A program made the position numbers and the translations under genes. 64,000 nt of DNA, taken from positions 62,001 through 126,000 of the forward strand of contig NZ_JACXAA010000004.1 in NCBI RefSeq assembly GCF_014699035.1, written 5' to 3'. The notes beneath the pieces are model-generated. The model was not told where the DNA came from. It saw only the letters and a list, made by a program, of their open reading frames with translations, and did no database searches. The stretch is from Spirosoma validum. Lineage in GTDB: Bacteria > Bacteroidota > Bacteroidia > Cytophagales > Spirosomataceae. Positions 1,276 through 28,284 of this stretch are shown here, piece after piece (within the stretch, counting starts at the first letter, position 1; the number at the start of each line of letters is the position of its first letter).

Positions 1276-1395
1276 GTCAATCCTCCTCAGCATGAACTTT
1301 AAATCGCCAATCCGAACAATAGGCGGGCCGAAACCGCCCAGGTGTAACGTACCCGTTTCGGGGTAGAGAGTTTAGTTTCGAACGCTTTATAATGG
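1276..1395 (-). repeat. 120-bp repeat, copy 1 (inverted relative to 28165-28284)
   Basis: The reverse complement of this stretch matches 28165-28284 with three mismatches in 120 bases. It fills a third of the 362-bp gap between the OLD gene and the next gene; the rest of that gap is AT-rich with nothing recognised. In its own polarity the repeat points at the OLD gene and ends about 150 bp upstream of its ATG. One frame reads as an open C-terminal-like peptide ending in TAA, followed by an AGGAGG-like tract. It may be a shared leader, the 3' end of a lost gene, or the edge of a mobile unit. Confidence 0.85.
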
Positions 1396-1485
1396 CAATA
1401 GTTATCGAAAGAGGTGTAAAGTCGAGGGAGGGCAGGGCACCAAGGGGGTGAGCATTTTCTAGGTAAAGAAATCGACTAGCCTTTG

Positions 1486-2325
1486 TTATTGTATTTTTTC
1501 ATATAAAACCTTATTTATATACGCTTGCTCATTGATACCAAAGTGTTGGTATTTTATCCAGTCTAAGGAACTCAATGTACCTGTATAGTCAGACTCCTCT
1601 TTTAATATATGCTGGGTCACTACTCTTTCATTCTTTTTCATACCATCTGTAACTCTTTCTTGTACGGAACTTGTTATCTTATACACCTGTGTATCACGTC
1701 TATGTAGTTCAATATGTGTACCACTAACAAATGCGTTTTTGTACTCTTCCTTGTCCCTTCTAAAGACAGTGCGCTGAAACCACTTTTTCGATCCATCCCC
1801 TACTTCGAAAACGGCCACCAATAAAATTAAATTATTTTCGGGTTTTAATTGAAGCTCTTTTAGGTAAGTTTCTATCCCAGGGCCAATGACTGTAATATTT
1901 GTACCAGGATCAATTTTATTACCATTTATTATGTACATGTACCTGTCCGGGAAGTTATCAAACATTTGATCAGTTGCAAATAGTTTAACATTCAGGTTAT
2001 GAATTGGATATTTTTGACTTGTATCCATTTTAATCTTTATTTGAACTTTGTTGTCCCAAGGCCATTCCGAAAACTCAAGGTAACAGTAACTATCACCTCC
2101 TGTATTGTAATTTTTTACATCCTGTACGCCCTCTAAAATTTTATCTGATTTTTTTGATGAGTTCTCGTCTTGAAAAAACTTTCCAATAATTCCGAAAGCA
2201 GTGCCAACCAAGGCAATCACACCAGCGATAAGTATAATGTACAGCGGCTTCATGCCGTCCATTATAGCAATTACCATTCCCGCTATAAGTAATATTCCAC
2301 CAAGGACAATGAAGCCAATTGCCAT
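1486..2325 (-). CDS. Membrane-anchored hypothetical protein
   Basis: The protein has about 279 residues. Two hydrophobic helices lie in the first 50 residues (IGFIVLGGILLIAGMVIAI and YIILIAGVIALVGTAFGII). A soluble domain of about 220 residues follows, rich in beta-prone segments. The frame is open to a GTG at 2364, but a -7 like element (TATATTTG) overlaps that codon, so the ATG at 2325 is preferred. It was not recognised as a known family. It is transcribed toward the OLD gene but separated from it by the 120-bp repeat, so a shared operon is unlikely. The helix count is visible; function is unknown. Confidence 0.7.
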   Translation of the reverse strand: MAIGFIVLGGILLIAGMVIAIMDGMKPLYIILIAGVIALVGTAFGIIGKFFQDENSSKKSDKILEGVQDVKNYNTGGDSYCYLEFSEWPWDNKVQIKIKMDTSQKYPIHNLNVKLFATDQMFDNFPDRYMYIINGNKIDPGTNITVIGPGIETYLKELQLKPENNLILLVAVFEVGDGSKKWFQRTVFRRDKEEYKNAFVSGTHIELHRRDTQVYKITSSVQERVTDGMKKNERVVTQHILKEESDYTGTLSSLDWIKYQHFGINEQAYINKVLYEKIQ

Positions 2326-2363
2326 TCTTTTTTTCACGATATAATTATGTGATAAAGAGTACA

Positions 2364-2371
2364 CAAATATA
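2364..2371 (-). promoter_or_regulatory. Putative Bacteroidota -7 element
   Basis: On the minus strand this reads TATATTTG, a match to the Bacteroidota TAnnTTTG -7 motif. It lies about 40 bp upstream of the ATG at 2325. No clear -33 TTG is seen at the usual distance, so support is partial. Confidence 0.4.
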
Positions 2372-2542
2372 AGTACTCTATATGTCGATAGGCCGCAGTA
2401 TAGCTAAGCGACTTCTCAAAAAAACAGGAGTTTCTCCCAAGTTAAGATTCTCTACAGTCAGTCTAAGCAAAAATTATAAGTTGCGAGTTAAGAGAATCAC
2501 TGGAAATAGCTATTTAAGTTTTGTAGCCTATTTTCAAGGCGC

Positions 2543-2588
2543 AAAAAATACCCCTCAACCAACACGTATAGGTTGAGGGGTATTTTTT
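2543..2588. terminator. Bidirectional intrinsic terminator
   Basis: A perfect 18-bp stem (arms 2543-2560 and 2571-2588) encloses a 10-base loop. It is flanked by an A-run on the left and a T-run on the right, so it can work on both strands. On the minus strand it lies about 240 bp upstream of the membrane-protein start and insulates that gene from the VWD lipoprotein's surroundings. No convincing plus-strand gene feeds into it. Confidence 0.85.
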
Positions 2589-2605
2589 GTATAGGTTAGT
2601 TAAAA

Positions 2606-4945
2606 CTACTTCTGAATCTTTATGTCAAAAGTTACCCACCAGCCCGTGCCTTTTTTACCGAAATTTTTGACCCGATAGACACCCCGCTTCCCATCCTGAG
2701 TTACAAAGCGGGTGAGGGTCTGACTGAAGAAATAGCTTGGTACGCATAGATTTGTATTATCAGCAGCAGCTACCAAAATGGTACTGGATGAGTTGCTGGA
2801 AGCTTGGACATAGTTCAGCCAGGGTAGATTTGCCAGCGAAGCAGAAGAAGTTAAATTAGGCCACTGCGCGCCTGCAATTACATTCGTGGAAGTCGGGTTG
2901 TCATCTCTTGGGGTAGACTTTGAGTCATATCCCCCAGTTCTATAAACCGACCATTTTTGGTCGTTGAGCATCCGATAGGTTGGATATACGCCACACGAAG
3001 AACCGCAAAGTATTATATTGGCGGGTGATCGGATGTCTATTCCGCAGTAATACGTCACAATCGCATCAACCTTATTAGCATTTTTGGCTCCGTCTTTTAA
3101 TTGATAGACCTCACCTGTATGCAAATTTACCAGACAGGAATCTTCGAGATTGCCTTGTGAATTGCTCACTGTTATGCGTACATCTTTAAAATAACTAACG
3201 TCGTTACTGACCAAGGGGTCAGATAAAGGATTCATTTGTTGGCTCAAAAGCGACGAATTTGCGAAAGCTAGATCGTTCGTATAATATATGTCCGTGGCGC
3301 AGTTGGTCAGAAAAGGTTCGTTCGTTACACCCTCCTTTCGGCAAGCTTCTAAAGCGCTCTGCCACTTAGCAAGTTCAACAGCCTCTCTTTTCTGAGGGAA
3401 ATTTTTCTTGGTATAGCTATCTGTGTTATTCGAGCCATCATAGTGCAAAAGCGATCCTGTTTTGACGCGCCAGCTATCGGCAAAACTAGAATATAGCTCA
3501 TTGAGTGAATAGGCTATTACTTTTCCATCTTTAATCATTAAATCATTATCCTTGTTGCCATCATAATTACCCAGTAGGCCAATTACTTTACCTTTGCGTT
3601 CATCATTTATAGACAAGCTATAATCCAGCCAGTATGTCCCATTGGTTTGAATTTTAACGGCGTCATTTTTTGTCGTTATTACGGTATATACATCTCGCCC
3701 GTTTTCTTGAGACTTCTTAACAGACGCATTCTTAGTGAGAGGCAAGGTTGTAAAATTCAAGTCTTGAACCTTCGCATCGTTTACATACAATGTGAAAGGC
3801 TTTGCTGTTACGCTTACAATATCCCCTCCAGTTTGAATACCAATAGCCGTATTCACTGTTACATAGCCGGTATTCATTACGTCTTCCTGACGTGCCTGTA
3901 CTTCAAAATTATCTTCCGTTGATTTTATGGCGATAAACTCACCATGCCCCTGAAAATCATAATAATATCCGTCGGCAGTTTTTAAATGGGGGTCACCGGT
4001 GCTTTGAATAAACCATCGCCTAATTGTTTCTGGAATATTGCTGTTCTTTAGATCATCGTATAACCTTTGAAGTTGTTGTTGAATTTTAGGTATTAATTCC
4101 TTCCAGTCCTCAGGTGCTGCTTGTGTTTGACAACCTTGCCCTCCTGATAATGCTTTACAAATAGGGTCTAATAAACCGGCAAATGCATTAGAAGCGTTAC
4201 CCCCTTGTCCTACAAGGTCTCCAAAAAGGCCTCCTCCGTAAGTAGACTGAAAAGCATTATATGCTCTATATGCAAAGTATGCAGCTACCGCCCACCCCGC
4301 ACCGTTTAGTGCTGCCGCAGCTAGACCGGCTCCCAAAGCTGGAGATAAAGCTGCCACAACTGAAAATGCAAGAATTCCTGCTACCGCCCAGACAAATCCC
4401 TGAACAGATGTTGAGACTTGTTGAGCTTGTGCTGATGGAATTATACTGGTCAAAAAATCCCAAAGAAAATTCTTATTAACTGATTTGTTATATGCCAAGT
4501 CAATATTTTCTCGATTAATTAACTTTTGTATTTGAGCTTGACTTAACTTAAGTTCACTTCGAAATTCAGGAAAGCTCGAGAAATAATCTTTAGCAAAGTC
4601 TCCATAAGTCGCAAATCGATTATAGTCGATACTTTTGTTAACAAAAGCAGCAATGAAATCACCTGATATTTTGATAGTCTTGTTTTTGTCTTTCGTTGAA
4701 TACCGGTATAAATAGCCTTCCAAATTAAATTTTAAGTCAGAAGTTTGAATCAAATTGAGGAGGACGACACCCTGACTCTTATCATTTTCTTCAAAAAGTA
4801 GCGTATATACCGCAGCTTGCAAATCATTTTTGCTTGATGATCCAGGATTTGTAGCGTCTTCCTTGCTTGTGTTACAAGAGCCTAAAGCGAATAATAACAT
4901 TAAAACGAACTTAGCTCCTATTTTTGAATTAAAATATGTGCTCAT
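2606..4945 (-). CDS. Lipoprotein with von Willebrand factor type D domain
   Basis: The protein has 779 residues. A lipoprotein signal ends at the lipobox LGSC (Cys24), so it should be exported and lipid-anchored. Residues about 183-228 are a long Ala/Gly-rich hydrophobic stretch. A VWD domain begins with GDPHLKTADG at about 317 and includes DFQGHGEF and, near 457, GLLGNYDG followed by DND, the calcium-type motif of the family. The C-terminal 250 residues contain scattered cysteines and are unassigned. VWD proteins are usually adhesive or structural surface proteins, and partner specificity cannot be read here. It is not a recognisable phage gene and is more likely host or accessory cargo. Confidence 0.85.
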   Translation of the reverse strand: MSTYFNSKIGAKFVLMLLFALGSCNTSKEDATNPGSSSKNDLQAAVYTLLFEENDKSQGVVLLNLIQTSDLKFNLEGYLYRYSTKDKNKTIKISGDFIAAFVNKSIDYNRFATYGDFAKDYFSSFPEFRSELKLSQAQIQKLINRENIDLAYNKSVNKNFLWDFLTSIIPSAQAQQVSTSVQGFVWAVAGILAFSVVAALSPALGAGLAAAALNGAGWAVAAYFAYRAYNAFQSTYGGGLFGDLVGQGGNASNAFAGLLDPICKALSGGQGCQTQAAPEDWKELIPKIQQQLQRLYDDLKNSNIPETIRRWFIQSTGDPHLKTADGYYYDFQGHGEFIAIKSTEDNFEVQARQEDVMNTGYVTVNTAIGIQTGGDIVSVTAKPFTLYVNDAKVQDLNFTTLPLTKNASVKKSQENGRDVYTVITTKNDAVKIQTNGTYWLDYSLSINDERKGKVIGLLGNYDGNKDNDLMIKDGKVIAYSLNELYSSFADSWRVKTGSLLHYDGSNNTDSYTKKNFPQKREAVELAKWQSALEACRKEGVTNEPFLTNCATDIYYTNDLAFANSSLLSQQMNPLSDPLVSNDVSYFKDVRITVSNSQGNLEDSCLVNLHTGEVYQLKDGAKNANKVDAIVTYYCGIDIRSPANIILCGSSCGVYPTYRMLNDQKWSVYRTGGYDSKSTPRDDNPTSTNVIAGAQWPNLTSSASLANLPWLNYVQASSNSSSTILVAAADNTNLCVPSYFFSQTLTRFVTQDGKRGVYRVKNFGKKGTGWWVTFDIKIQK

Positions 4946-4988
4946 ACTTTATACATTTTAATATTTATACATATCTAGGTGATTCAGT

Positions 4989-5027
4989 TTATTGATCCGT
5001 GAATTGGTCTGTAAAGTTTGTGGGCAG
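4989..5027. repeat. 39-bp inverted repeat, left arm
   Basis: This pairs with 5826-5864 in inverted orientation, with two mismatches in 39 bases. The arms bracket one gene (5063-5716) and its palindromic upstream site. The layout fits the ends of a small mobile cassette or an invertible segment. No transposase or recombinase is encoded between the arms. Confidence 0.8.
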
Positions 5028-5062
5028 TTTACTGTTGGCTTTTAGGAGTCAGTTAGGGGCAA

Positions 5063-5716
5063 TTACAGGCGTTTTATCTCTATATGGGCATCATATACTC
5101 TTGAATTTGCTTTACTTCTAATTGCAAAGGTTGAGTAACTCCCTGTTACGTTCAGTATAACATTAGCGATTTGCGTTGTGATTATACTAGATATTGCCCC
5201 ACCGGGTATTTCAACTCCATTGTACTCAGCGACTAATGACAAATTGGATCCGCCGAGTACAATCGTATAGGTTACATGGTAAAGGCCCGGTCTAGAAAAC
5301 GTAAAAACAGAGTTGCCAGCAGGATTGAGTGTTATATCTGACGAAAGCTGTTGAAAATCAGGGAAATCTAGTAAAGCCCCATTCGCTATATCAGCTGGTA
5401 GTACCCGTTGTGCAAAGGCATAACTTGGGACTATAGCTGCGGTTAGCTCAGCCTCGGTAACTAACCTTTGCCAACTCCCCTGTTTGAATAGATAGTAGCC
5501 TAAAGGAGATTCATTCTGATACACCATTAACCCCTCAACCGGATTCGGAATGTTAGTTCGTTGTTGGGCACTCATGCGGGGTGGTAGTAAGCCTCGTTGT
5601 GTAGACACTACATCGAGCTGAGCCGACGGGTCGGGAATAATGGTTCCAATGCCAACTTGAGCATAGGCCGTTATAGTGAGTAGCAATAATAAAGGGGTCA
5701 GTAAATGGTTTTTCAT
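5063..5716 (-). CDS. Secreted GIGT-type head-domain protein with beta-sandwich-like C-terminus
   Basis: The protein has 217 residues. A Sec signal peptide ends near ITAYAQ. It is followed by the Bacteroidota head motif GIGTIIPDPSAQLDV and then LLPPRMSAQQR and GLMVYQN, typical of secreted surface or fibre-like proteins. The C-terminal 110 residues look like a C1q/TNF-type jelly-roll (FSRPGLYHVTYTI). The same PPRM-QR-GL-VY module forms the C-terminus of the protein at 35568-36698. It is the only gene inside the 39-bp inverted repeats. An adhesin role is inferred. Confidence 0.75.
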   Translation of the reverse strand: MKNHLLTPLLLLLTITAYAQVGIGTIIPDPSAQLDVVSTQRGLLPPRMSAQQRTNIPNPVEGLMVYQNESPLGYYLFKQGSWQRLVTEAELTAAIVPSYAFAQRVLPADIANGALLDFPDFQQLSSDITLNPAGNSVFTFSRPGLYHVTYTIVLGGSNLSLVAEYNGVEIPGGAISSIITTQIANVILNVTGSYSTFAIRSKANSRVYDAHIEIKRL

Positions 5717-5734
5717 ATTTTAGAGCGGTTAAAC

Positions 5735-6124: not shown

Positions 6125-6331
6125 ATGACAAATGTAAAAATGAGAGTTGGCCATTTGATACGAGAGGCTCGTAAGGCGAAGGGACTAACTCAGAAAGAAC
6201 TGGGGGCGAAACTGGGCGTTTCAGAGTCAACCTTTAATCAGTATGAATCTGGTAAGCAGAACCTTACCATTGAAACACTTGAGAGAGTAGCAAACGCTAT
6301 CGGAGTAGATATAAAGGCTTTAATTAACTAA
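6125..6331 (+). CDS. XRE-family helix-turn-helix regulator, block A
   Basis: The protein has 68 residues, almost all a Cro/C1-type HTH: LIREARKAKGLTQKELGAKL, then SESTFNQYE as the recognition helix. The start was taken at the ATG at 6125, six bases after an in-frame GTG and close behind GGAG. It is a clear paralogue of the XRE protein at 25020-25223, which sits at the head of block B in the opposite orientation. It probably represses its own operon and the small genes downstream. No effector domain is present. Confidence 0.9.
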   Translation: MTNVKMRVGHLIREARKAKGLTQKELGAKLGVSESTFNQYESGKQNLTIETLERVANAIGVDIKALIN

Positions 6332-6492
6332 TATTTTTTTACTTAAACACTTTGGATATATCTTAAGTTTTACTAATATTGTAATGCAGTTCAGGCCGAA
6401 AATCGGTTTAGCTACAAACGAAGAACCCCAACGATTCAAACTTGGCGGTAGGAACGTCGGGGCTTCGTGATCACTTTTAACAGTTCGTTACT

Positions 6493-6867: not shown

Positions 6868-7177
6868 GAAATTCAGCGACAAGGCTTTAGTCGAACGTCA
6901 GGCAGTATTAGAAAAGGCGGTAAAGGATTTAGTTGTCGAGTCGGACCTTTCCGATAATCTCGAGGAAATCTCAAGCGCCTTTTATTCGCATTTTCTGTTT
7001 ATGGTCGATGCTGACCCCGAACGTGATGTGGATCACACCAAAGTATTCGAGCTTCGCGAGCATCATATTTCCAGTCTGTTTTCTACGTTACGGCTTATGG
7101 TTAGGCTGGCGGCAATTTATGAAGCCTATGACCGTGTAGACAACATGCGCAAATTGCAGGAGGTGGGCTGTGAATGA
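6860..7177 (+). CDS. Hypothetical helical protein, block A
   Basis: The protein has 105 residues, mostly helical and acidic. It overlaps the previous gene by 8 bp and the antirepressor by 8 bp, so the three genes are translationally coupled. It occupies the same position as 24132-24452 in block B, but sequence similarity is weak. Its 3' end (GCAGGAGGTGGGCTG) provides the ribosome binding site for the antirepressor. No known family was recognised. Confidence 0.7.
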   Translation: MDKKFSDKALVERQAVLEKAVKDLVVESDLSDNLEEISSAFYSHFLFMVDADPERDVDHTKVFELREHHISSLFSTLRLMVRLAAIYEAYDRVDNMRKLQEVGCE

Positions 7178-7937
7178 GTTGATAACCATCTCGACGGGGG
7201 GGCAAGGTTCGCCCGTTGTTTCTGCTCGTGAATTGCACAGCTTTTTCGAGGTTAAGACTGAGTTTGCCAAATGGAGCAAACGCATGTTTGATTACGGCTT
7301 CACCGAGGGGCAGGATTATTCGCAGGTTATCGTCAAAAATGACGATAACCCCAATGGAGGGCGGCCAATGACCGACTACGCCTTAACGTTGGATTGTGCC
7401 AAAGAAATTGCCATGATCCAGCGCACCGAGAAGGGCAAACAGGCGCGGCAATATTTCATCGACAAGGAAAAGCAGCTTAACTCGCTGTTGGCCCCCGCCC
7501 CTCCATCTACGGAGCAGGTCTTGATGCAACTAGTTAGCCAAAGTCAGCAAATTCTACTGACGCAGGGGGAAATGATTGCCCAGCTTCGAGCCGACGTTGA
7601 TCAGATTATGACAACGGGCTGCAAGCCAGTCAACCCAGGCCGGGCGGGTAGGCAGTTGTCTATGCCGGGCCTGCCCCGACCACGGCCGAGCGTCGGTACG
7701 TCCCCGTTACGTCAACTCATTCACACGCGGGTAGTGGAGTACTGCGGTTTCCACGACGCGACCACGCAGGAAACGTATACCTACCTCTATAAGCGACTGT
7801 TTGACGTGTACAGCATTAACGTATATAGGTTGACGCGAGCCGGTACGGAAAGCATGTTGGACGCCCTGGAGCGGTACGGGCATCTGGACAAAGTGTACGG
7901 GTTGGTAATGGCTGAACTAAGCTATTCGGAAGAGTAA
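7170..7937 (+). CDS. AntA-type phage antirepressor
   Basis: The protein has 255 residues. The N-terminal 100 residues are an AntA/AntB domain (VSARELHSFFEVKTEFAKW, then YGFTEGQDY and RPMTDYALTLDCAKEIAM). Residues 105-255 form a second domain nearly identical to the C-terminal half of the Rha-type protein at 23372-24139, including TYTYLYKRLFDVYSINVYRL. AntA proteins usually counteract phage repressors. Here two different N-terminal domains share one C-terminal domain, so the C-terminus probably binds a common partner or oligomerises. The stop overlaps the ATG of the next gene. Confidence 0.85.
   Translation: MNELITISTGGQGSPVVSARELHSFFEVKTEFAKWSKRMFDYGFTEGQDYSQVIVKNDDNPNGGRPMTDYALTLDCAKEIAMIQRTEKGKQARQYFIDKEKQLNSLLAPAPPSTEQVLMQLVSQSQQILLTQGEMIAQLRADVDQIMTTGCKPVNPGRAGRQLSMPGLPRPRPSVGTSPLRQLIHTRVVEYCGFHDATTQETYTYLYKRLFDVYSINVYRLTRAGTESMLDALERYGHLDKVYGLVMAELSYSEE
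7485..7937. repeat. Near-identical antirepressor 3' half, inverted copy of 23372-23821
   Basis: The DNA encoding the shared C-terminal domain is about 95 percent identical by eye in its second half to the block B copy, which lies in the opposite orientation 15.4 kb away. The flanking genes of the two blocks (HNH, GIY-YIG) have diverged strongly at synonymous sites. This contrast points to recent gene conversion or recombination confined to this segment. Confidence 0.75.
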
Positions 7938-8287
7938 TGAACGGGCGCGTAATAAAGCTAAAAGCATGGGATAAAACAGGCCGGACATTTGTTCCGGTCT
8001 GTTCCCTGCCTGCCAACCCTGACCTGACAATCGTTCAGTTTACGGGCATCTACGATAAGAACGGGCGGGAGATTTGGGAGGGTGATATTTTGTACTGGCG
8101 GTGCTACGACCAGTCCGAAAACCGCGTGTACGAGTCATGGCATGAGGTGGTGTTTCAACATGGAGCGTTTGGGGTACTGGCCGGTGATCACGATCTGAAT
8201 ACGTTCAATGACGTAAATACGGGCGATCTGGTAGTTGGCAACGTCTTTGAAAACCCTAACATGATATGTTCACCACGTCGGAACTGA
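7937..8287 (+). CDS. YopX-like phage protein
   Basis: The protein has 116 residues. The order LKAWDK, QFTGIYDKNGREIWEGDIL and a C-terminal VVGNVFENP is that of the YopX family, common in phages of Gram-positives and Bacteroidota and of unknown biochemical role. The ATG overlaps the antirepressor stop, so it is cotranslated. Block B has no YopX gene at the equivalent place; a short signal-like ORF sits there instead. The start is well defined by the overlap. Confidence 0.8.
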   Translation: MNGRVIKLKAWDKTGRTFVPVCSLPANPDLTIVQFTGIYDKNGREIWEGDILYWRCYDQSENRVYESWHEVVFQHGAFGVLAGDHDLNTFNDVNTGDLVVGNVFENPNMICSPRRN

Positions 8288-8592
8288 TCAGAAAAATAAG
8301 ACGCTTAGATGAATACGAAGCGTGGAAGCGGGCGGTTTTTATTCGGGACCGTTTCGCCTGTCAACAATGTGGTGCAAGGAACGGTCGTAAGCGAGTTATA
8401 GAGGCCCATCACCTAACGGAATTATCTACATTGGTAAGGGCAAACGGCATTACGTCAGTGGAGGAGGCCAAAGAATGTGTTGCCTTGTGGTCGCACGACC
8501 TAGGACAAACGCTGTGTCATTCATGCCACGAAAAAACTGAATCCTATCCTGTAAATTTTCGCAAACCAGTCAAAAAAAAGAAAAGGTCATGA
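8266..8592 (+). CDS. HNH endonuclease, block A
   Basis: The protein has 108 residues. A zinc-binding CQQC pair near 35 is followed by EAHHL (the HNH histidines) and a second LCHSCH pair, giving a complete small HNH nuclease. The C-terminus is strongly basic (KPVKKKKRS). It overlaps YopX by 22 bp. The paralogue at 22743-23093 has the same architecture, and both sit directly before a GIY-YIG gene. It could be a homing-type nuclease or a phage DNA-processing nuclease; the association with GIY-YIG favours homing. Confidence 0.85.
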   Translation: MFTTSELIRKIRRLDEYEAWKRAVFIRDRFACQQCGARNGRKRVIEAHHLTELSTLVRANGITSVEEAKECVALWSHDLGQTLCHSCHEKTESYPVNFRKPVKKKKRS

Positions 8593-9302
8593 TAATAGCA
8601 CACTATAATTTCCCCGGCATTTACAAGTTTACTAATAAAATAAACGGTAAGGTTTATGTTGGGCAGTCTGTAAACATTTGTAGGCGGTATTATACGCATG
8701 GATGCAAAAGTCAAGAAATGACATTTGGTTATGCCATTCGTAAGTATGGTAAAAAGAACTTTGAGTTTGAGGTTTTAGAGCGAGTTGACGACACGTCCCA
8801 GCTAAAAAACAGAGAGCAGTATTGGATGGATTATTACCAAAGCTACGAATCCGACAAGGGCTATAACATACTTAGACTAGCCACTGACGCAGGTAAGCGC
8901 GTAGGAAGAAAGGCCACAGAAAAGCAAATAGAGGCTACCAGAGCGCGAGGAAAGGCGCAGGTTGGCGAAAAGAATCCCATGTATGGCAAAAAACGTTCGG
9001 ATGAACTTAAGGCGAAATTAAGTGCATACAGAAAAGGGGTTCCGGTCCCTGAATCGCGGCTTAAACAACTTATAGAGCATAATAAAGTTTTAGGTGCTGC
9101 CAAGCGAGTAAAAATAGATCAAATTGACCCTCAAACGGGCAAGGTTCTCAAGGTTTGGGAGTCAGCTCGAAAGGTGGCCGAAGCATTGGGCATTCACCGA
9201 CAATCGATTCCTTATCGCTGTAGGGGCATCAACCCAAAAAATGGTAAGCCCTTCAATGATGATCTTTTCCTTGGTTTTCGCTGGCAGTTTCACGAACAAT
9301 GA
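8589..9302 (+). CDS. GIY-YIG homing-type endonuclease with NUMOD motifs, block A
   Basis: The protein has 237 residues. The GIY-YIG catalytic domain is residues 8-95 (GIYKFTNKINGKVYVGQS, an arginine after YVGQSVNICRR, and the glutamate in REQYW). A NUMOD3-like stretch follows (NPMYGKKRSDELKAKLS), then a NUMOD1-like DNA-binding module (QIDPQTGKVLKVWESA, then LGIHRQSI). It overlaps the HNH gene by 4 bp. Such proteins cut at a specific site and promote their own spread. No intron was recognised around it, so it is probably free-standing. Confidence 0.88.
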   Translation: MIIAHYNFPGIYKFTNKINGKVYVGQSVNICRRYYTHGCKSQEMTFGYAIRKYGKKNFEFEVLERVDDTSQLKNREQYWMDYYQSYESDKGYNILRLATDAGKRVGRKATEKQIEATRARGKAQVGEKNPMYGKKRSDELKAKLSAYRKGVPVPESRLKQLIEHNKVLGAAKRVKIDQIDPQTGKVLKVWESARKVAEALGIHRQSIPYRCRGINPKNGKPFNDDLFLGFRWQFHEQ

Positions 9303-14227: not shown

Positions 14228-14386
14228 TACGACTTGCTTAACCCACTAATAATCACTATACTTGAATCAGTTTTTGATACCTGTTGGCAGTCGCCCATAC
14301 AGCATCGAATTTAAATCAACCAAACGACATGAAACGCTAACTTGCCTCCGCTAAGAAAAGCCAAAGGGCTATTTTAGACATCTCAT

Positions 14387-14412
14387 AAAAGCCCGCCGAC
14401 GAGTGGGCTTTT
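14387..14412 (-). terminator. Hairpin after the single-repeat gene
   Basis: AAAAGCCC and GGGCTTTT arms enclose a 10-base loop directly after the stop of 14413-14784 on the minus strand, with an A/T-rich flank. It would end or attenuate transcription before the tail-tip gene. That implies partial readthrough or a separate promoter in 14228-14386, where none was identified with confidence. Confidence 0.6.
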
Positions 14413-14784
14413 CTAGTTTTTCAGGGCCAATACCCAGTTGCTTGGGCGAAAGCACAATGGTTTATTTCGAGCCTTTATGCATCTGCGCAAATGGAGCCCG
14501 TCAGCCCATAAGTCATTTTCTTTATAGGGCGGATAGGGGGTAACTACGAAAAATGTTAGACTTTCGGCAGTGGGATTGATTAGTACTGTCGCCCTTTTAA
14601 ATGCTTCCAGTGTTTCTTTATCTTCAATCGGCAACCATAGCTTTTCTGTGGAATCCCAAACAAATAGTTCTTCTGATTGAACCCTGAACCAGTAGTCTCC
14701 ACTTGATAGGGCGGTATTACTTCGTGGGTCGTTTTCAGAAAAAAAGCACTCAATACGCCCTTCAATAGCTTCTGCGGTTTCCAT
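14413..14784 (-). CDS. Stand-alone single copy of the tail-tip repeat
   Basis: The protein has 123 residues. It is one whole unit of the repeat found four times in the tail-tip protein: IEGRIECFFSENDP, SSGDYWFR, LWLPIEDKETLEAFKRA, TPYPPYKENDLWADG and PSNWVLALKN. It has diverged more than the four internal units have from one another. It lies between the Dit-like gene and the tail-tip gene, 12 bp from the former. It may be a tail accessory protein that caps or competes with the repeats, or a relic of a longer array. Confidence 0.75.
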   Translation of the reverse strand: METAEAIEGRIECFFSENDPRSNTALSSGDYWFRVQSEELFVWDSTEKLWLPIEDKETLEAFKRATVLINPTAESLTFFVVTPYPPYKENDLWADGLHLRRCIKARNKPLCFRPSNWVLALKN

Positions 14785-14796
14785 ATAGTTGATTGG

Positions 14797-16011: not shown

Positions 16012-16029
16012 CGCGGATTGCTTAATTCA

Positions 16030-16263
16030 CTATCGTAATGGTACTTGCTTACCTTCTTTGGGGAAACCACGATCATCATTACCTACTTCAATGTAGGCGA
16101 CTGGTCGAAATCGAGGGGAGTAGTCTTCCAATTCGCTCGTACGCAAAAATTCCAGCGTATTAGGAGACGTGGTTGAATAATACTTGCCTTCCTGTTCGTC
16201 GAACATTAGCGCGATGACGCCCGTATCGGTTCGTTTACAAATGGGTTGCTTTTCCTTTTTCAT
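16030..16263 (-). CDS. Small hypothetical tail-module protein
   Basis: The protein has 77 residues, hydrophilic, with no recognised domain. It lies 4 bp after the tape measure stop and 18 bp before the Dit-like gene, so it is part of the tail operon. The sequence (EGKYYSTTSPNTLEFL, then RPVAYIEVGNDDRG) hints at a small beta-fold protein. Function is unknown. Confidence 0.7.
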   Translation of the reverse strand: MKKEKQPICKRTDTGVIALMFDEQEGKYYSTTSPNTLEFLRTSELEDYSPRFRPVAYIEVGNDDRGFPKEGKQVPLR

Positions 16264-16267
16264 AAGA

Positions 16268-20821: not shown

Positions 20822-21172
20822 TTAATCCACCTCAACCAATTCAGGTTCAATATATAGTACTCTTTCGCAATCGCAGGATGTTCCCATTGTCGATAGGGTC
20901 ACATATCGCTTTAATTCTTCTTTTGAATTGAATACACGTAGCGTTGCAATTTGCTTCATTTGCTCAACTGTCAAATGATTATACAGATAGCCCATTAACC
21001 CGCTCATTATGAGAAAGCAATTATCGTCCGTGAGTTCGGGCGTACTAACCGACAAGGTAAACAAACCCGTTGCCCCCTGCCCGTAGGTCGGCTCTAAATT
21101 GAAAAATTCAATTTCGGGTCTGTAAGAAGTTAAAACTTCTTTAATCATTCCTACCAATGCTGTCTTATCCAT
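20822..21172 (-). CDS. Hypothetical protein paired with HEPN gene
   Basis: The protein has 116 residues, with no recognised family. It is acidic at both ends, with a CDCERVLYIEPELVEVD C-terminus. Its ATG lies inside the 3' end of the HEPN gene (22-bp overlap), so translation of the two is coupled. It is not a MNT nucleotidyltransferase, the usual HEPN partner. Position suggests an antitoxin or regulatory partner, but the sequence does not show it. Confidence 0.7.
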   Translation of the reverse strand: MDKTALVGMIKEVLTSYRPEIEFFNLEPTYGQGATGLFTLSVSTPELTDDNCFLIMSGLMGYLYNHLTVEQMKQIATLRVFNSKEELKRYVTLSTMGTSCDCERVLYIEPELVEVD

Positions 21173-21570
21173 TGCATTAATATTTGTACCGACTCCAAAA
21201 AACTATCACACTTCTGTTTGCTGCAAGCAATTGGCTCATACCTCTTCACTTCGCTCCATCCGTCTGTCTGGCTGGTAATGTAACTATAAGCGGACTTTAA
21301 TTTGGGGTCAAGCGTTTCGGCTAGCCCCTTGACAAACCCAGCGAATATTACAAGCTTTGAAAGTTTATGAGTGCGAAAATTACTCAGTTCACCATCCATG
21401 CCAGCATAAATTTCGTAATTCAAATGTGTAGATATAGCCGCCTTTAGTGCGCATTCAATGACATAGCCAGCTAGGTAATAAGCTCCGTCATATTTGCCAG
21501 CACTGTGTAAAACCAATGCTTCCTCTAGCCTCCTTTCCGCTATATCCTTGAACTCTAAACCTGTTGGCAT
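21151..21570 (-). CDS. HEPN-domain protein
   Basis: The protein has 139 residues. It shows the HEPN pattern AERRLEEALVLHSAGKYDG followed by AYYLAGYVIECALKAAI, then HKLSKLVIFAG and a WSEVKRYEP segment. HEPN proteins are often RNases in toxin-antitoxin or defence systems. The canonical Rx4-6H catalytic motif is not obvious here, so it may be a non-catalytic or variant member. It sits at the 3' end of block B, between the GIY-YIG terminator and the tail module, as the first gene of a two-gene unit. Confidence 0.8.
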   Translation of the reverse strand: MPTGLEFKDIAERRLEEALVLHSAGKYDGAYYLAGYVIECALKAAISTHLNYEIYAGMDGELSNFRTHKLSKLVIFAGFVKGLAETLDPKLKSAYSYITSQTDGWSEVKRYEPIACSKQKCDSFLESVQILMQWIRQHW

Positions 21571-21792: not shown

Positions 21793-22746
21793 CTATGCGT
21801 ATTGCCACCTAAAGCCGCCGTACGTACTTTTGGGTGTATAAAATTTTTTATTAACAGCGCACCACTTCGGTTTATTCGCACATGTTCTTCGTATTGCCTC
21901 TTTGGACAACCCAGGTAAACCATGAATAGAGCTAACACAGGGCCATACTTGGATAACTTTGCCGGTATCAATGTCTATCTGACAAACTGGCTTCTTTTGA
22001 GTTTCAATGTGTTTTCCTGCATTAATTGGCACAATAGCTGAAGCACCTTCTTTGGATACATGTTGCCATTCAAAGCCTTTACAAATATTGTTTCTACAAA
22101 ACCATCGTTGTCTTGAAGGTGAATAGTAGCCGCCCTTACAGGCATATCCGATAGCGGATTCGGGTATGCCTAACTGCCTTTTTATCTCACTGCCGGAAGA
22201 CCATACTTTAATTATCTTACCCGTTTTCAAATCAATCTGAGCAACAGGCTTACTTTTAGCGGCAATTTTTGCAAGCAAAGTCTGCTCGGAAACAGGCTTA
22301 CCCTTCCTATCGTCAGATAGTTTTTTCTTAGCTGCCTCTGAATGACTCCTACCTAACCAGGGGTGCCCTATTTCTTCGCGTTGTTTTTTCAAGGCTGCCA
22401 ATCCATTTGCCGTCTCCCAAGGTTCGCGCTTCCTTCCTTTGGTTGGGCTATTTACAAAAATTACAGTGTTATAGCCTTTATCTTTAGTATAGCTTTGATA
22501 GTAATCAAGCCAGTATTGCTCTTTGGCGTCAAGTTGCTCTATGTCATCTACTCGCTCTATGGCCTCAAACGAAAAGTTATCAACCCCGTATTTTTTTAAA
22601 GCCCTAGCAAAGTTAAAATCATCTTTCAAGCGCCGGTGTTGAAGGAATCGCTTATACATATTAATAGCCTGCCCAATATAAACTTTGCCGTTTAGCTTAT
22701 TGGTAAATTTATAAATGCCTGAAAATTTACAATCAACTGGATTCAT
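21793..22746 (-). CDS. GIY-YIG homing-type endonuclease with two NUMOD1-like modules, block B
   Basis: The protein has 317 residues. The GIY-YIG domain is residues 9-95 (SGIYKFTNKLNGKVYIGQA, then KEQYWLDYYQSY). A NUMOD3-like segment follows (HPWLGRSHSEAAKKKLS), then two NUMOD1-like repeats (QIDLKTGKIIKVW and QIDIDTGKVIQVW), against one in the block A paralogue. The second repeat accounts for the extra 80 residues. It overlaps the HNH gene by 4 bp exactly as in block A. Confidence 0.88.
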   Translation of the reverse strand: MNPVDCKFSGIYKFTNKLNGKVYIGQAINMYKRFLQHRRLKDDFNFARALKKYGVDNFSFEAIERVDDIEQLDAKEQYWLDYYQSYTKDKGYNTVIFVNSPTKGRKREPWETANGLAALKKQREEIGHPWLGRSHSEAAKKKLSDDRKGKPVSEQTLLAKIAAKSKPVAQIDLKTGKIIKVWSSGSEIKRQLGIPESAIGYACKGGYYSPSRQRWFCRNNICKGFEWQHVSKEGASAIVPINAGKHIETQKKPVCQIDIDTGKVIQVWPCVSSIHGLPGLSKEAIRRTCANKPKWCAVNKKFYTPKSTYGGFRWQYA

Positions 22747-23093
22747 GCCTTTTTTCTCTTTTTCTTAACAGGTTTACGAAAATTGACGGGGTACGACTCG
22801 GTTTTCTCGTGACACGAATGACAAAGCGTAAGACCGTTATCAGCCGACCATAACGCAACACATTCCCTTGCTTGTTCTACTGAGGTAATATTGTGCAACG
22901 TAACTAGCGTTGACAATTCGACTAAATGATGAGCTTCAATGACCCGCTTTCGACCATTACGCGCTCCACACTGCTGACACGTACAGCGATCGCGTAAATG
23001 AACTGCCTTGACCCACTCCCTATACAGCTCTGAGCGTCGAATTAATCGGATAAGGGCAGTCTTACCACCCTTATCCTTCACCATTGACTGCAT
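22743..23093 (-). CDS. HNH endonuclease, block B
   Basis: The protein has 116 residues. It carries CQQCGARNGRKRVIEAHHL, the same central motif as the block A protein, and LCHSCHEKTESYPVNFRKP at the end. The N-terminal 20 residues differ. DNA divergence from block A is mainly at synonymous positions, so the duplication is old. It starts 2 bp after the stop of the small gene 23096-23257. Confidence 0.85.
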   Translation of the reverse strand: MQSMVKDKGGKTALIRLIRRSELYREWVKAVHLRDRCTCQQCGARNGRKRVIEAHHLVELSTLVTLHNITSVEQARECVALWSADNGLTLCHSCHEKTESYPVNFRKPVKKKRKKA

Positions 23094-23257: not shown

Positions 23258-23372
23258 ATGTAGGATGATGATTAATATGATGTTGAAGGATGAGTTGATT
23301 AGCTGTTACAGCCAAAAGGAAAAAGGGTAGAGCCGCTAGAAAGTCCGAACGGGGCAGGAAGAGTTTTTTCAT
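23148..23372 (-). CDS. Possible small membrane or exported peptide
   Basis: The 74-residue frame begins at an ATG overlapping the stop of the Rha-type gene, the same arrangement as the YopX start in block A. The N-terminus (FLAALPFFLLAVTANQLIL) is hydrophobic like a signal anchor. The second half is low in character and overlaps the frame at 23096-23257. It may be a short membrane protein or a decayed gene that keeps the ancestral start. Confidence 0.35.
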   Translation of the reverse strand: MKKLFLPRSDFLAALPFFLLAVTANQLILQHHINHHPTYGNPRNQLNQRFINAAAWSMARPQNKAHLVRRTGVL

Positions 23373-23821
23373 TATTCCTCCGAATAGCTTAGTTCAGCCA
23401 TTACCAACCCGTACACTTTGTCCAAATGGCCGTACCGCTCCAAGGCGTCCAACATGCTTTCCGTACCGGCTCGCGTCAACCTATATACGTTGATGCTATA
23501 CACATCAAACAGTCGCTTATAGAGGTACGTATAGGTTTCCTGCGTGGTCGCGTCGTGAAAGCCGCAGTACTCCATTACCCGCGTGTGAATGAGTTGACGT
23601 AACGGGGACGTACCGACGCTCGGGCGTGGCCGGGGCAGGCCAGGTAGGCTTAGTTGTTTGCCCAACCGACCCGGCTTAGCCGGTCTTTTGTTGTGCATGA
23701 TCTGGTCAACGTCTGCCCGAAGCTGAGAGAGCATTTCCTCCTGCGTCAGTAGAATTTGCTGACTTTGGCTAACTAGTTGCATCAAGACCTGCTCCGTAGA
23801 TGGAGGGGCGGGGGCTAACAG
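23372..23821. repeat. Near-identical antirepressor 3' half, inverted copy of 7485-7937
   Basis: This is the block B copy. It matches the block A copy closely over the start of the shared domain and again over its last 90 codons, with a more divergent patch between. Orientation is opposite, so recombination between the two would flip the tail module and HEPN pair lying between them. Confidence 0.75.
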
Positions 23822-24139
23822 CCGTTTACGGGCATCGGCAAACGATTTAACTAGCACTGACTTAAATTCAACGACTCGCTTGGAGTTGCGACTTAGCGTA
23901 CCAATAAACAAAGCCTGATCTTCGGTGAGTTGCGCCACTGATTCGGGCCGACCTTTCCCTGTTTCGATTTTTCGCGTTTCAAACGCGATTAATCCAAAAT
24001 CTCGTTCGATGATTTCCCGATGGGTGCGAATAGTTTCCAGCAGGTTCTTGTGCTGAATATCCAGTCCAGCCGCGAAGTCCAGAGAGGAGACTACCAACGA
24101 ACCTTGCTCATCCGTAGTAATACGAATTAGTTCATTCAT
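23372..24139 (-). CDS. Rha-family phage regulatory protein with AntA-protein-type C-terminus
   Basis: The protein has 255 residues. The N-terminal 105 residues are a Rha (pRha) domain: SLDFAAGLDIQHKNLLETIR, LTEDQALFIGTLSRNS and VVEFKSVLVKSFADAR. The C-terminal 150 residues are almost identical to those of the AntA protein at 7170-7937. A third protein, at 63207-63983, has the same kind of Rha domain but a KilAC-type C-terminus. This is a clear case of domain exchange among antirepressors in one element. The overlap with 24132-24452 makes it part of an operon. Confidence 0.85.
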   Translation of the reverse strand: MNELIRITTDEQGSLVVSSLDFAAGLDIQHKNLLETIRTHREIIERDFGLIAFETRKIETGKGRPESVAQLTEDQALFIGTLSRNSKRVVEFKSVLVKSFADARKRLLAPAPPSTEQVLMQLVSQSQQILLTQEEMLSQLRADVDQIMHNKRPAKPGRLGKQLSLPGLPRPRPSVGTSPLRQLIHTRVMEYCGFHDATTQETYTYLYKRLFDVYSINVYRLTRAGTESMLDALERYGHLDKVYGLVMAELSYSEE

Positions 24140-24810: not shown

Positions 24811-25019
24811 TTTAATGAAGGTTAGATTGTTCTACATGCCCCTTTGCTACTGTCGTCGAAAACTTAGCATTGGGGTTTTCTTTATCTTTTCAGGCTTCTA
24901 CCGTTGGGCGGGGCAACCATATTATGGTACTATGCCACCGTTTTCGTGCCTAATGGATTATGTAAAGATAGTAAAATGTAACATTTGTCCAACATTATAG
25001 GTCAAAAAAATATTGGCAA

Positions 25020-25223
25020 TCAAAAAAATGGCTTAATCTCAAGGCCCAATGCAGTTGCTACCCTCTCAAGTGTTTCAATTGTCAAGTTTTGATCGCCTTT
25101 TTCGTAACCATTGACTGTAGCGTGCGAAACCCCCAGTTTCTCCCCCAGTTCCTTCTGAGTTAGCCCCTTCGCTTTACGAGCCTCCCGAATCTGCTGCCCT
25201 ACCCGTTGTTTAATGTCTGCCAT
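25020..25223 (-). CDS. XRE-family helix-turn-helix regulator, block B
   Basis: The protein has 67 residues: QQIREARKAKGLTQKELGEK, then SHATVNGYEKG, a complete Cro/C1-type HTH. The frame continues upstream to 25313, but a TACATTTG -7 element lies in that extension, so the ATG at 25223 (MADIKQRV) was chosen. It is close to the block A regulator in the first two helices but differs in the recognition helix (SHATVNGYE against SESTFNQYE), so the two probably read different operators. Confidence 0.9.
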   Translation of the reverse strand: MADIKQRVGQQIREARKAKGLTQKELGEKLGVSHATVNGYEKGDQNLTIETLERVATALGLEIKPFF

Positions 25224-25247
25224 TACTATAGTTAAGCCTATTATTAA

Positions 25248-25280
25248 CAAATGTACAATATTGTGGAAGTTGGTATCCAA
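25248..25280 (-). promoter_or_regulatory. Putative promoter of block B regulator
   Basis: The minus strand reads TACATTTG at 25255-25248, a match to TAnnTTTG. A TTG lies at 25280-25278, somewhat farther away than the usual 19 bp. It is 25 bp upstream of the ATG at 25223. Confidence 0.45.
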
Positions 25281-25753
25281 TGTTGTAGAACTTTCTTGGA
25301 TAGACCCTATCATTTTGAAGGAGTCTCCTGCACACTTTGTATAAGTTTCCAGAATTGAGCCAACGGACCAAAGCGTTCAATTCCCCTATTATGAAGCAGA
25401 AGGGAACAACATGAGATGCTAACATACCTTATAAGGATTCCACCTGTACATTTAGAAAATCCTCCCAAGATCGACCTGTATATTCTGTATTAGTCATTAA
25501 GCTTCAAGTCAAAATCAGTCTTGCGAAACACTACCGCTTAATCACTTCAACAGCCATTTTTAGGATAATTCATATACCAAGTGTTACTTTATTAGCAATA
25601 GGCTCAATAAATGGGCAATAACATTACACAATATATGAAAACAGTTGTCTGTATATTACCAAAGGCTTAAAATGCTCATTCGTATTTACAAGCATAGAAT
25701 AGGTTTTATACCAAACTACGCTTTTTAAAATCCACACAACAAAAATAAAAGAT
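25281..25753. other. AT-rich intergenic region
   Basis: There is no convincing gene on either strand between the block B regulator and the membrane-GNAT gene. Base composition drops sharply here and stays AT-rich through about 29.4 kb, marking the edge of a segment with a different origin. No strong hairpin or repeat was seen. Confidence 0.6.
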
Positions 25754-28066
25754 ATGTCAACTAATAAATCTCGAATCGAAGAGCAGAAAGATGAAGATAA
25801 CTCATTCTTAAAATCGTTTTTCGACGATCAATTGGGCCTACTACTAACAATAGTAGGAAGCGTTCCAATATTAACTGATTATTTTAATATTATTCCACAC
25901 CCCACTAAAATTACTGAAATTTCCGTTAGTGCCATTAACTTAGTTTCAGTTTTCATTTGCGGTATTCTAATAATTACAATTTACGGTGAGCGAAACAAAT
26001 TAACTAATGCAAAAAAAGTACATATTGTCTTGTTGGGTTTTTTGTTAATGATCTTAGGTTTTTCGTTGTTATTGTTGTACACTTACAAAGGTTTCTTTTT
26101 TAATAATAATAGTATTTCCGTATATAGAGATTTAATTATACGGTTAGATTTTTGGATGGGAGGTTTATTAATACTTTTATCCTTGATAGTCGGTATTCTT
26201 TTGCTACTTTTTACAATGTATGCCACAATTTATGATTCTGGCAAAACTAAACAAAGACAAGAAAAAGAAAATTATTCGCAATCTGCAGAATTTACAAGAA
26301 ACTTTATATCTTATAAGAAAACATTAAACTTCCTTATAATTGTTTCAATTATTGCTATTTTATATTTATCATTTCGTTCTATAATAATGCAATATTTTCC
26401 ATATATCAATCCGGAAATAAAAATTAAAAGCCGTACAGTTTCGTTTATACATACACTTTTATATTTTGCTTATTATCCATTAATATTAATTGGTGCAGTT
26501 ATTACTTTAAGTGTTATTCTCAAATCATATGAAGGTAAAAGAAATTTTTATCAAAACATCAATCGACTTAATAAGAATTTCTACAATCCAATTGAACGAA
26601 TAGTCGAAAATTTGGCAAATTTTGAAATATGGTTTGATGCAAATGAAAAAAAAGACGTTGAAAACTTTTTGGAATCTTCAAACACCAAAGATTATTTTTT
26701 TTCTAAGAGAAATAGGCAAGAGCATGAACAGTTGTCGGGTAAGTGGGAAAGCTCTGCGGGAGAACTTTTTGCTGAAAGAGCACAACGTCATTTTCTTTGG
26801 AGGGCTATAAGGACTAAACTTAACCATTATGCACAGAGAATCGATCAACTGGGAAGCACTACAGGAAGAAACCTGACAGCTTCCGGTAATTTGATTGATG
26901 AAATTGTAAAAAAGCTACCATTCAGTGATGATACAATTAAGGAATTTAACGCTGTCAGTTGGAATGATTTGCTGTTTTGGCAAAGGCGTGGAGAGGAATA
27001 CCTCTCTTGGAGTAAAGAAATGATAGACAAAGGAATTAAAGTTAAACGCGTTTTTCTCTTAAATAGTAGTAAGGATATAATTGGTAAAAATGATGATGAT
27101 TTTAGGGATAATTTAGATGTATTATTTGATCAAATTATGGCAGGAATTCTTATTGGAATTTGCTACGTGGATTCAATAAAATCTTATGATGGTGGAACTT
27201 TTGCATCGGGGACAGAGTACGATTTTGGCTTCTTTCCAAATTTTGGTGTTACTTTCTTCGAAAAACCGCTTAGAGTTGGGGGCAGAAGTTTCAAAATGCT
27301 TTTCGATGAGGAAGCTATAAATAATTATTCGGAGTTTTTCAATAAAATACTAAAGGGTTGTGTATTTTGTTCTGATATAAATAACGGTTCATCTTGTTCA
27401 ATTGAACAAATCAAAGAAAATGCAATCGATCGTATCAATGATCTTGCAAGATATTTAAAGGAAGAGGATTTTACAAGAGAAAAAATTTACATAATAGAAG
27501 AGGCAGTAAATAAAAGAGAAATTGATAATAATAAAAAACAAGACATAAAAAGCGAGAAATTAAATTTTGAAATATTGCCCACTGATATCGAATACATTGA
27601 CACGATCATAGCTATTGAAAATGATGCTAAACATTTAATTCGATGTTGGGACAAAGACCGGCATGAGTTAGCCACAAAAGGTATAGCCGAACGGCATTTT
27701 TCAATAATTGATGTAACCGCAGGAACCGTTGTCGGTTATGCAGTTTTAACTAACATAAATGATGATGATCACAGTGTGAAATTGCAAAGAGTAGTTGTTA
27801 GCTCAACAAATCGCGAAAATGGTTATGGTTCGCAAATGCTTGATTACTTAAAACAAATTGTATTTGATGAAATGGGGATGCATAGATTTTGGTTAGAAGT
27901 AAAAGCTAGCAACAGAAATGGAATTTTGTTCTATACAAAGCAAGGATTTAAGGTTGAAGGATATTTAAGAGATAGCTTTTTAAATGGAGAAGAATATGAA
28001 ACATTAGCGTTAATGTCATTACTTCGTAGAGAGTTTAAATATGAAAATGCAGATCAAAGAATGTGA
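25754..28066 (+). CDS. Six-helix membrane protein with C-terminal GNAT acetyltransferase domain
   Basis: The protein has 770 residues and is strikingly AT-rich. Six hydrophobic helices lie at about 30-50, 60-80, 90-112, 134-160, 190-212 and 233-260. A cytosolic region of about 350 residues follows, with a segment (SWNDLLFWQRRGEEYLSWSK, then GIKVKRVFLLNSS) that looks like a conserved but unnamed domain. The last 160 residues are a GNAT fold: VVGYAVLTNI, the acetyl-CoA motif RENGYGS, LEVKASNRNGILFYTKQGF and GYLRDSFLNGEEYE. Membrane-anchored GNAT fusions are not a standard phage gene. A defence or signalling role is inferred from the neighbouring TIR gene. Confidence 0.8.
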   Translation: MSTNKSRIEEQKDEDNSFLKSFFDDQLGLLLTIVGSVPILTDYFNIIPHPTKITEISVSAINLVSVFICGILIITIYGERNKLTNAKKVHIVLLGFLLMILGFSLLLLYTYKGFFFNNNSISVYRDLIIRLDFWMGGLLILLSLIVGILLLLFTMYATIYDSGKTKQRQEKENYSQSAEFTRNFISYKKTLNFLIIVSIIAILYLSFRSIIMQYFPYINPEIKIKSRTVSFIHTLLYFAYYPLILIGAVITLSVILKSYEGKRNFYQNINRLNKNFYNPIERIVENLANFEIWFDANEKKDVENFLESSNTKDYFFSKRNRQEHEQLSGKWESSAGELFAERAQRHFLWRAIRTKLNHYAQRIDQLGSTTGRNLTASGNLIDEIVKKLPFSDDTIKEFNAVSWNDLLFWQRRGEEYLSWSKEMIDKGIKVKRVFLLNSSKDIIGKNDDDFRDNLDVLFDQIMAGILIGICYVDSIKSYDGGTFASGTEYDFGFFPNFGVTFFEKPLRVGGRSFKMLFDEEAINNYSEFFNKILKGCVFCSDINNGSSCSIEQIKENAIDRINDLARYLKEEDFTREKIYIIEEAVNKREIDNNKKQDIKSEKLNFEILPTDIEYIDTIIAIENDAKHLIRCWDKDRHELATKGIAERHFSIIDVTAGTVVGYAVLTNINDDDHSVKLQRVVVSSTNRENGYGSQMLDYLKQIVFDEMGMHRFWLEVKASNRNGILFYTKQGFKVEGYLRDSFLNGEEYETLALMSLLRREFKYENADQRM

Positions 28067-28164
28067 TTCCATTACTGTATATAAGTGCATACTAAAAGAC
28101 AATATTAAGCCCTACCCACAACATTCCCCCTCCCTCAGCTTAATTACTCAGATCGGCACCTATC

Positions 28165-28284
28165 CCATTATAAAGCGTTCGAAACTAAACTCTCTACCCC
28201 GAAACGGGTACGTTACACCTGGACGGTTTCGGGCCGCCTATTGTTCGGATTGGCGATTTAAAGTTAATGCTGAGGAGGATTGAC
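28165..28284 (+). repeat. 120-bp repeat, copy 2 (inverted relative to 1276-1395)
   Basis: This has three mismatches in 120 bases to the reverse complement of 1276-1395. It occupies part of the 424-bp gap between the GNAT gene and the TIR gene, and in its own polarity points at the TIR gene, ending about 207 bp before its ATG. The two substitutions inside the open frame change amino acids (Ala to Thr, Ala to Gly), so coding constraint is not evident. The rest of the gap is empty. Confidence 0.85.

Follow-up and report, generated by a model that had tools for sequence, protein, structure and literature searches.

A 64,000-nucleotide stretch of the Spirosoma validum genome (assembly GCF_014699035.1, contig NZ_JACXAA010000004.1, positions 62,001 to 126,000, here called the window) contains a multi-slot cargo island headed by endonuclease genes, which is present twice, in inverted orientation, around the tail genes of one prophage and carries different defence-type genes in the same slot. 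An earlier note on this DNA had pointed to a near-identical 120-base-pair (bp) inverted repeat, each copy of which precedes a different defence-type gene, and had proposed a shared leader, a recombination seam or the 3' end of a lost gene as its nature. The recombination seam fits best of these three: the prophage cargo islands have probably been shuffled by homologous recombination, with the 120 bp as one of the seams. The 120 bp looks like an ordinary seam left over from recombination rather than a special leader; the islands have several such seams, and the 120 bp is no new element. Coordinates follow the numbering of the window, and negative values lie to the left of its left edge.

The 120-bp repeat and the mirrored patches

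A repeat search of the window found 1276-1395 and 28165-28284 as inverted 120-nucleotide arms with 98% complementarity. Alignment of the two copies gave 117 identical positions out of 120, with three mismatches and no gaps, and self-blastn gave 97.5% identity (E 8e-53), which confirmed the repeat as it had first been described. The edges are sharp on both sides, with an ungapped identity of the adjoining 60 bp of 0.40 upstream and 0.25 downstream; the sequences after the repeats are unrelated, as the earlier note had said. Each copy does point at a defence-type gene. The left copy lies 122 bp from the listed TTG start of an OLD-like open reading frame (ORF), or about 150 bp if an ATG at 1123 is taken as the start, and the right copy lies 206 bp from the start of a tandem-TIR ORF. 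This pairing is real, but it is one detail of a larger paired locus, in which other slots contain genes that lack a defence match.

Self-comparison of 96 kilobases (kb) of the contig revealed six patches that pair in inverted orientation, in strictly mirrored order, at 73-97.5% identity. They lie in two accessory arms that are inverted relative to each other, at about -7.9 to 9.3 kb (left) and 21.8 to 34.8 kb (right), and the left copies of patches 1, 2 and 3 fall beyond the left edge of the window. The patches and the inner ends of the arms, with protein lengths in amino acids (aa), are as follows.

Patch 1: -7904 to -7316 with 34241 to 34829 (minus strand), 95% identical; the right copy is the outer edge of its arm beside a tail-chaperone-like gene and extends about 90 codons into a 318-aa gene at 33564-34520.
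Patch 2: -5820 to -5519 with 33247 to 33544, 91% identical; in the right copy the alignment shows two terminator-like stems and T-runs.
Patch 3: -1382 to -922 with 29450 to 29910 (minus strand), 92.8% identical, 461 bp; the right copy holds a 106-aa gene at 29581-29901, and its sequence shows a terminator-like hairpin with a T-run.
Patch 4: 1276 to 1395 (minus strand) with 28165 to 28284 (plus strand), 97.5% identical; the 120 bp, both copies found by repeat search, self-blastn and alignment.
Patch 5: 6157 to 6407 (plus strand) with 24937 to 25191 (minus strand), 72.6% identical; an HTH ORF on the left (70 aa, 68% identical to the right) and an Xre-type HTH gene at 25020-25313 on the right.
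Patch 6: 7484 to 7941 (plus strand) with 23368 to 23822 (minus strand), 88.5% identical; the C-terminal parts of antirepressors, with an AntA N-terminal domain on the left (gene 7170-7937) and pRha on the right (gene 23372-24139).
Left arm, inner end: 8266 to 9302 (plus strand); ORF 8266-8592 (no Pfam match of its own; about 75% identity with the right arm's HNH_2 protein) and a GIY-YIG/NUMOD3 endonuclease gene at 8589-9302; faces the tail module.
Right arm, inner end: 21793 to 23093 (minus strand); endonuclease genes of the GIY-YIG (21793-22746) and HNH_2 (22743-23093) types; faces the tail module.

Two genes are mosaic between the arms. The products of the 318-aa gene are 95-98% identical over the first 80 alignment columns and 30-68% thereafter, and the antirepressors are 20-35% identical over the first 120 columns (AntA versus pRha) and 80-100% thereafter. 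The 120 bp and patch 1 are equally conserved (Fisher p 0.78), so the identity of the 120 bp alone demands no function of its own.

Cargo of the slots and its defence content

Different genes occupy corresponding slots of the two arms. The OLD/TIR slot is bracketed by the 120 bp on its 5' side and by the 461-bp patch 3, with its 106-aa gene and terminator, on its 3' side; it spans about 2.2 kb in the left arm and about 1.2 kb in the right. It is a single-gene slot that is visible with both of its boundaries.

Defence slot, left: 2 to 1153 (minus strand), OLD-like gene with Pfam AAA and OLD-like_TOPRIM matches; the full 624-aa ORF reaches to -721.
Defence slot, right: 28491 to 29384 (plus strand), tandem TIR protein of 297 aa with Pfam TIR_2 in two stretches.
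Next slot, left: 1486 to 5716 (minus strand), a 292-aa ORF, a VWD protein of 779 aa and a BclA_C-like protein of 217 aa (below the Pfam cut-off).
Next slot, right: 25754 to 28066 (plus strand), a 770-aa protein with a C-terminal GNAT domain.

From the outside inwards, the main ORFs of the left arm encode a 247-aa protein, a LuxR-like regulator, an AbiGi homologue, the OLD-like protein, the 292-aa protein, the VWD protein and the BclA_C-like protein. Those of the right arm encode proteins of 209, 212, 165 and 202 aa, all without a Pfam match, the TIR protein and the 770-aa GNAT protein. PADLOC profiles matched five of the ten arm proteins submitted: the matches of OLD/GajA, TIR and AbiGi were clear and those of the LuxR-like and HEPN proteins partial or weak, and the GNAT, 292-aa, 247-aa, 116-aa and 106-aa proteins had no match. 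Relatives of the TIR and OLD-like proteins were sought in 99 genomes each, this one included; the TIR protein had one in one other place (G006, 39% identity over about half its length), and the OLD-like protein had two, both in G058 (48% and 34%).

The 106-aa gene of patch 3 was considered as a marker of defence slots and rejected. Of 222 family genomes, 19 have this gene, the present one among them (33 places listed), and no relatives were found in the genome-contig collection. Neighbourhoods were compared in 20 regions of the 31 listed places outside this genome (in two of which the gene is not an intact ORF) and in one viral contig, which proved to be the G022 prophage described below. The neighbours were mixed, and in 5 of the 20 fetched places (L110, L113, L117, L122 and L127) the family lies at or near UmuD and/or UmuC homologues. 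Therefore, a gene that is common outside such islands and partly found near UmuD/UmuC cannot mark a defence slot. Its proximity to UmuD/UmuC hints at a link to the damage response.

A 116-aa ORF and a gene for a HEPN-domain protein (139 aa) lie in tandem at 20822-21570 (minus strand) and adjoin the tape measure gene; the 116-aa ORF has no Pfam or PADLOC match. The two are possibly a nucleotidyltransferase/HEPN toxin-antitoxin pair. Two further ORFs, at -15685 to -15281 outside the left arm and at -1989 to -1582 inside it, are 56% identical and in direct orientation.

The 91-kb prophage and its relatives

Both arms are located inside one 91-kb insertion. The host 200-aa gene, at -23843 to -23241 here, adjoins the DUF5723 gene, which starts at 67979 here, in all four relatives fetched for the empty-site comparison (G001, G004, G006 and G007, out of eight other genomes with the 200-aa gene). 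The ends of the insertion have in common just a 9-base core, TATTCACTG, at a distance of 91,055 bp, and short TTACTGAA repeats, so the exact ends of the prophage are inferred. An integrase-like ORF at the right end scored 25.0 bits with PF00589, below the cut-off of 27.1, and has a SAM-like integrase domain above the cut-off; its relatives occupy a similar place in G013, G023 and G029. A second integrase was sought in the prophage by a whole-genome family search, which found 10 integrase domains, none of them inside it. The gene set of the insertion is siphophage-like, with capsid, terminase, portal, head morphogenesis, endolysin and tape measure genes. Two parts of it lie next to the arms.

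Tail module between the arms: 9407 to 20512 (minus strand); a 1606-aa tail protein, a 404-aa protein and the tape measure gene (16268-20512).
Chaperone-like pair: 34842 to 35566 (minus strand); two overlapping ORFs (166 and 127 aa), whose homologues adjoin the tape measure gene in G027 and G029.

Tail assembly chaperone pairs are made by programmed frameshift in many tailed phages, and the two ORFs at 34842-35566 are presumed to be such chaperones from their position.

Matches to the tape measure protein at E <= 1e-10 occur in 14 of the 36 genomes of the genus, counting this one, and seven prophages were compared at a tape measure match of E <= 1e-198, with the present one (G000) among them. 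The junction of the chaperone-like and tape measure genes varies in content. It is nearly empty in G027 and G029, where the two genes nearly adjoin; in G023 it holds 3.3 kb of other genes (28980-32495 of the joined stretch, with ORFs of 598 and 216 aa); and in G000, G013 and G034 it holds islands of 14-19 kb, those of G013 and G034 being about 19 kb. The right arm described here sits at this junction. In G022 the tape measure gene has an island on either side, the two being inverted relative to each other. The 80 kb fetched from G022 yielded neither a chaperone nor a capsid homologue, so this prophage may be defective. The islands have GIY-YIG, HNH, antirepressor and HTH genes in common, and the GIY-YIG/HNH end faces the tail genes in six of six islands (left and right in G000, left and right in G022, and one each in G013 and G034).

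The cargo has turned over at the same locus among these related prophages. It includes Septu PtuA and an OLD-like protein in G022, putAbiC in G013 and an Ntox44-domain protein in G034. PADLOC matched 4 of the 10 sister cargo proteins (two weakly), and 6 of the 10 gave no match at E <= 0.01. Judged from profiles alone, the anti-phage-type matches of the cargo as a whole comprise OLD/GajA, AbiGi, TIR, PtuA and putAbiC, and many cargo proteins are unmatched. The cargo may serve in defence against other phages. In G013, part of the N-terminus of a different type of tape measure protein is present as a fragment outside the island; it is 84% identical to the N-terminus of the G027 type and 56% to the full-length protein of G013 itself.

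Formation of the islands

The two accessory islands, inverted on the two sides of the tail module, probably derive from a common ancestral island or have traded DNA with a shared pool. Homologous recombination, the presumed maker of the swaps, would then have acted at the patches and replaced the genes between them, which would leave different cargo in each slot. In one such slot, between the 120 bp and the 461-bp patch, the right arm now has the tandem TIR gene and the left arm the OLD-like gene. The seam idea of the earlier note is favoured by this bracketing of the OLD/TIR slot by the 120 bp and a second patch and by the sharp edges. The strictly mirrored order of the six patches, the mosaic genes, the position of both arms within one insertion and the related islands with other cargo in three sister prophages also speak for this reading.

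Four points weigh against it. The 120 bp was absent from the other genomes searched, so exchange at this seam is deduced from the two arms and no swap at exactly that seam has been seen between genomes. The 120 bp is also slightly less diverged than patches 1, 2, 3 and 6 pooled (3/120 versus 133/1793 differences, Fisher p 0.04, patch 5 being left out), which may leave room for weak functional constraint; this contrast is due mostly to patches 2 and 6. The predicted defence content is partial, with matches for five of ten arm proteins and four of ten sister cargo proteins, two of them weak in each set. Finally, the 106-aa gene of patch 3 is widespread outside such islands and thus marks no defence slot.

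A more specific proposal, which is tentative and rather unlikely, is that of a defence island headed by homing endonucleases and targeting the tape measure gene, with predicted GIY-YIG/HNH cutting and two copies that trade defence genes at the seams. The GIY-YIG/HNH enzymes would cut the tail genes of island-free rivals and the island would be copied in beside the tail module, sometimes to both sides in inverted orientation, after which the copies would trade defence genes slot by slot. The leftover tape measure fragment of G013 would be the footprint of one such event.

Alternative explanations

A possible alternative, which is considered somewhat improbable, is a tail-to-tail fusion of two related prophages. 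In that case the left 32 kb, with early-type genes, UmuDC, a tail-spike-like gene and the left arm, would be the inverted remnant of a second phage, and the 120 bp would be homology between the two phages. Consistent with this, the left genes, UmuDC included, are mostly on the plus strand and those of replication type on the right (53-66 kb) occupy the minus strand. UmuDC of G013 adjoins the integrase on the minus strand, and the left side here therefore mirrors a phage right end. A tail-protein fragment (-8128 to -7913) and the tail-spike-like gene lie outside the left arm, and the total of 91 kb compares with roughly 55 kb for the G013 prophage, as judged by gene matches at its ends. However, ORF comparison found only one ORF of this integrase family in the insertion, and outside the arms the protein similarity between left and right is limited to one small ORF. 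PHROG matches were obtained for just 4 of the 10 left proteins scanned, which leaves few genes to show that the left end is phage DNA, and G022 likewise has inverted arms around its tape measure gene. The fusion mainly concerns the origin of two arms in one prophage and is compatible with the 120 bp being a recombination seam.

It is unlikely that the 120 bp acts as a conserved leader or operator and drives the defence gene downstream of it, whatever that gene is. Its position and orientation 5' of two different defence-type genes, its near-perfect conservation and an inverted motif, CCGAAAC...GTTTCGG (10-30 bases between), which within the 91-kb prophage is confined to the two copies, would suit such a role. 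However, further copies were not found. DNA searches covered overlapping sets of 119, 222 and 390 genomes, each including this one, and the repeat occurs in this genome in two copies, both inside the one prophage; there was no copy in the 221 other family genomes (best non-self E 5e-4), in the 389 other order genomes, or in plasmid or phage records. The family search gave matches of up to E 1 in 137 of the 222 genomes, and among the matches listed all but the own copies were of 16-43 bases. Across all these searches and those for exact 29- or 30-mers of the repeat in larger genome-contig and viral-contig collections, the two own copies and chance-level matches were all that appeared. Listing the genes downstream of other copies, the check that had been proposed, consequently gave a null result. 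In addition, the repeat had no Rfam match, the predicted fold of the right copy was no better than that of shuffled sequences (z -0.22 and -0.29 for the two strands), and no Bacteroidetes-type promoter motif was found in a simple scan. Patch 1, which spans a gene and intergenic DNA, is equally conserved. Taken together, the conserved leader is not supported. CCGAAAC was also tried as a general operator, which was not convincing (16 occurrences in the window versus 10.2 expected, with 6 of 100 shuffles as high).

The third idea of the earlier note, in which an insertion targeted the 3' end of a gene that has since been lost, is likewise not supported and is very improbable. In both copies one reading frame runs uninterrupted across the repeat, with a TGA at the repeat's outer edge (ORF 28041-28283), and a 31-bp match at 90% identity lies within a serine hydrolase gene of G017. 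However, the 38-aa peptide of this frame found only its own two copies and chance-level matches in 36 genus genomes, this one included (best non-self E 0.1), and the G017 match, with E 5e-4 for one genome, was the best among 118 other genomes and was set aside as near chance.

A site-specific inversion element, in which recombination at the repeats would flip the intervening 27 kb, would suit near-identical inverted repeats with a short internal inverted motif; it is very unlikely, as the patches nest inside and outside the repeats in mirror order, which a single pair of sites leaves unexplained, the sole integrase-like ORF among those scanned lies at the right end of the prophage, away from the repeats, and just one orientation is known, from one assembly. 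The copies do not fit the terminal inverted repeats of a transposon: no target-site duplication is visible just outside them, no transposase was found between them by Pfam at E <= 0.001 among 22 ORFs scanned, and the homology also runs on outside them.

Relation to known systems

That prophages carry exchangeable defence genes is already known. Here one prophage holds two aligned versions of a cargo locus, so exchange seams can be read from a single genome. A limited literature search found no paper on this locus.

Phage morons and genome mosaicism are established concepts. Like morons, the cargo described here has its own orientation and terminators, lies among phage genes and has sharp homology edges; unlike morons, it forms two mirror-image copies with a common series of seams in one prophage. 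Homing endonuclease genes are expected beside their target. The GIY-YIG and HNH genes resemble free-standing homing endonucleases in adjoining phage structural genes, whereas the islands differ in carrying many cargo genes. If endonucleases do drive the exchange, the tail module would be an identifiable entry point for defence genes in the phages of this genus. Free-standing phage homing endonucleases and intronless homing are among the topics of PMC2988022, and SegB is reported, in PMC13096335, to drive segmental amplification of anti-defence loci. Rousset et al. 2022 (PMC9122126) describe anti-phage hotspots of about 1-5 kb between conserved genes of P2-like phages and P4-like satellites, which hold varied antiviral systems and for which exchange of the locus by recombination was proposed. 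The slots found here are similar in being about 0.7-4.8 kb long and in holding different antiviral-type genes among phage genes, but they differ in forming a series, a 13-17 kb island, which occurs twice, inverted, beside a tail module and with endonuclease and antirepressor genes.

Other features of the prophage

The remaining structural genes lie at 35066 to 52631.

Capsid: 39474 to 40571 (minus strand).
Terminase: 47848 to 49885 (plus strand).
Portal: 49892 to 51289 (plus strand).
Head morphogenesis: 51588 to 52631 (plus strand).

Of 1949 terminase matches, the ten listed are from a sewage phage and from Croceibacter and Cellulophaga phages, all below 60% identity. The terminase/portal operon (42230-52631, plus strand) and the capsid operon (35066-41952, minus strand) are divergent here and likewise in G029. 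A 620-aa tail-like gene (43117-44979) heads the capsid operon here and follows the tail protein in G022 and G027, which suggests a rearrangement. The gene for the 1606-aa tail protein has internal repeats within 10587-12103, and an upstream ORF at 14413-14784 is about 32% similar. A beta-helix protein with weak matches to tail-spike and EPS depolymerase proteins is encoded at -10503 to -8587, a site beyond the left arm and distant from the main tail operon.

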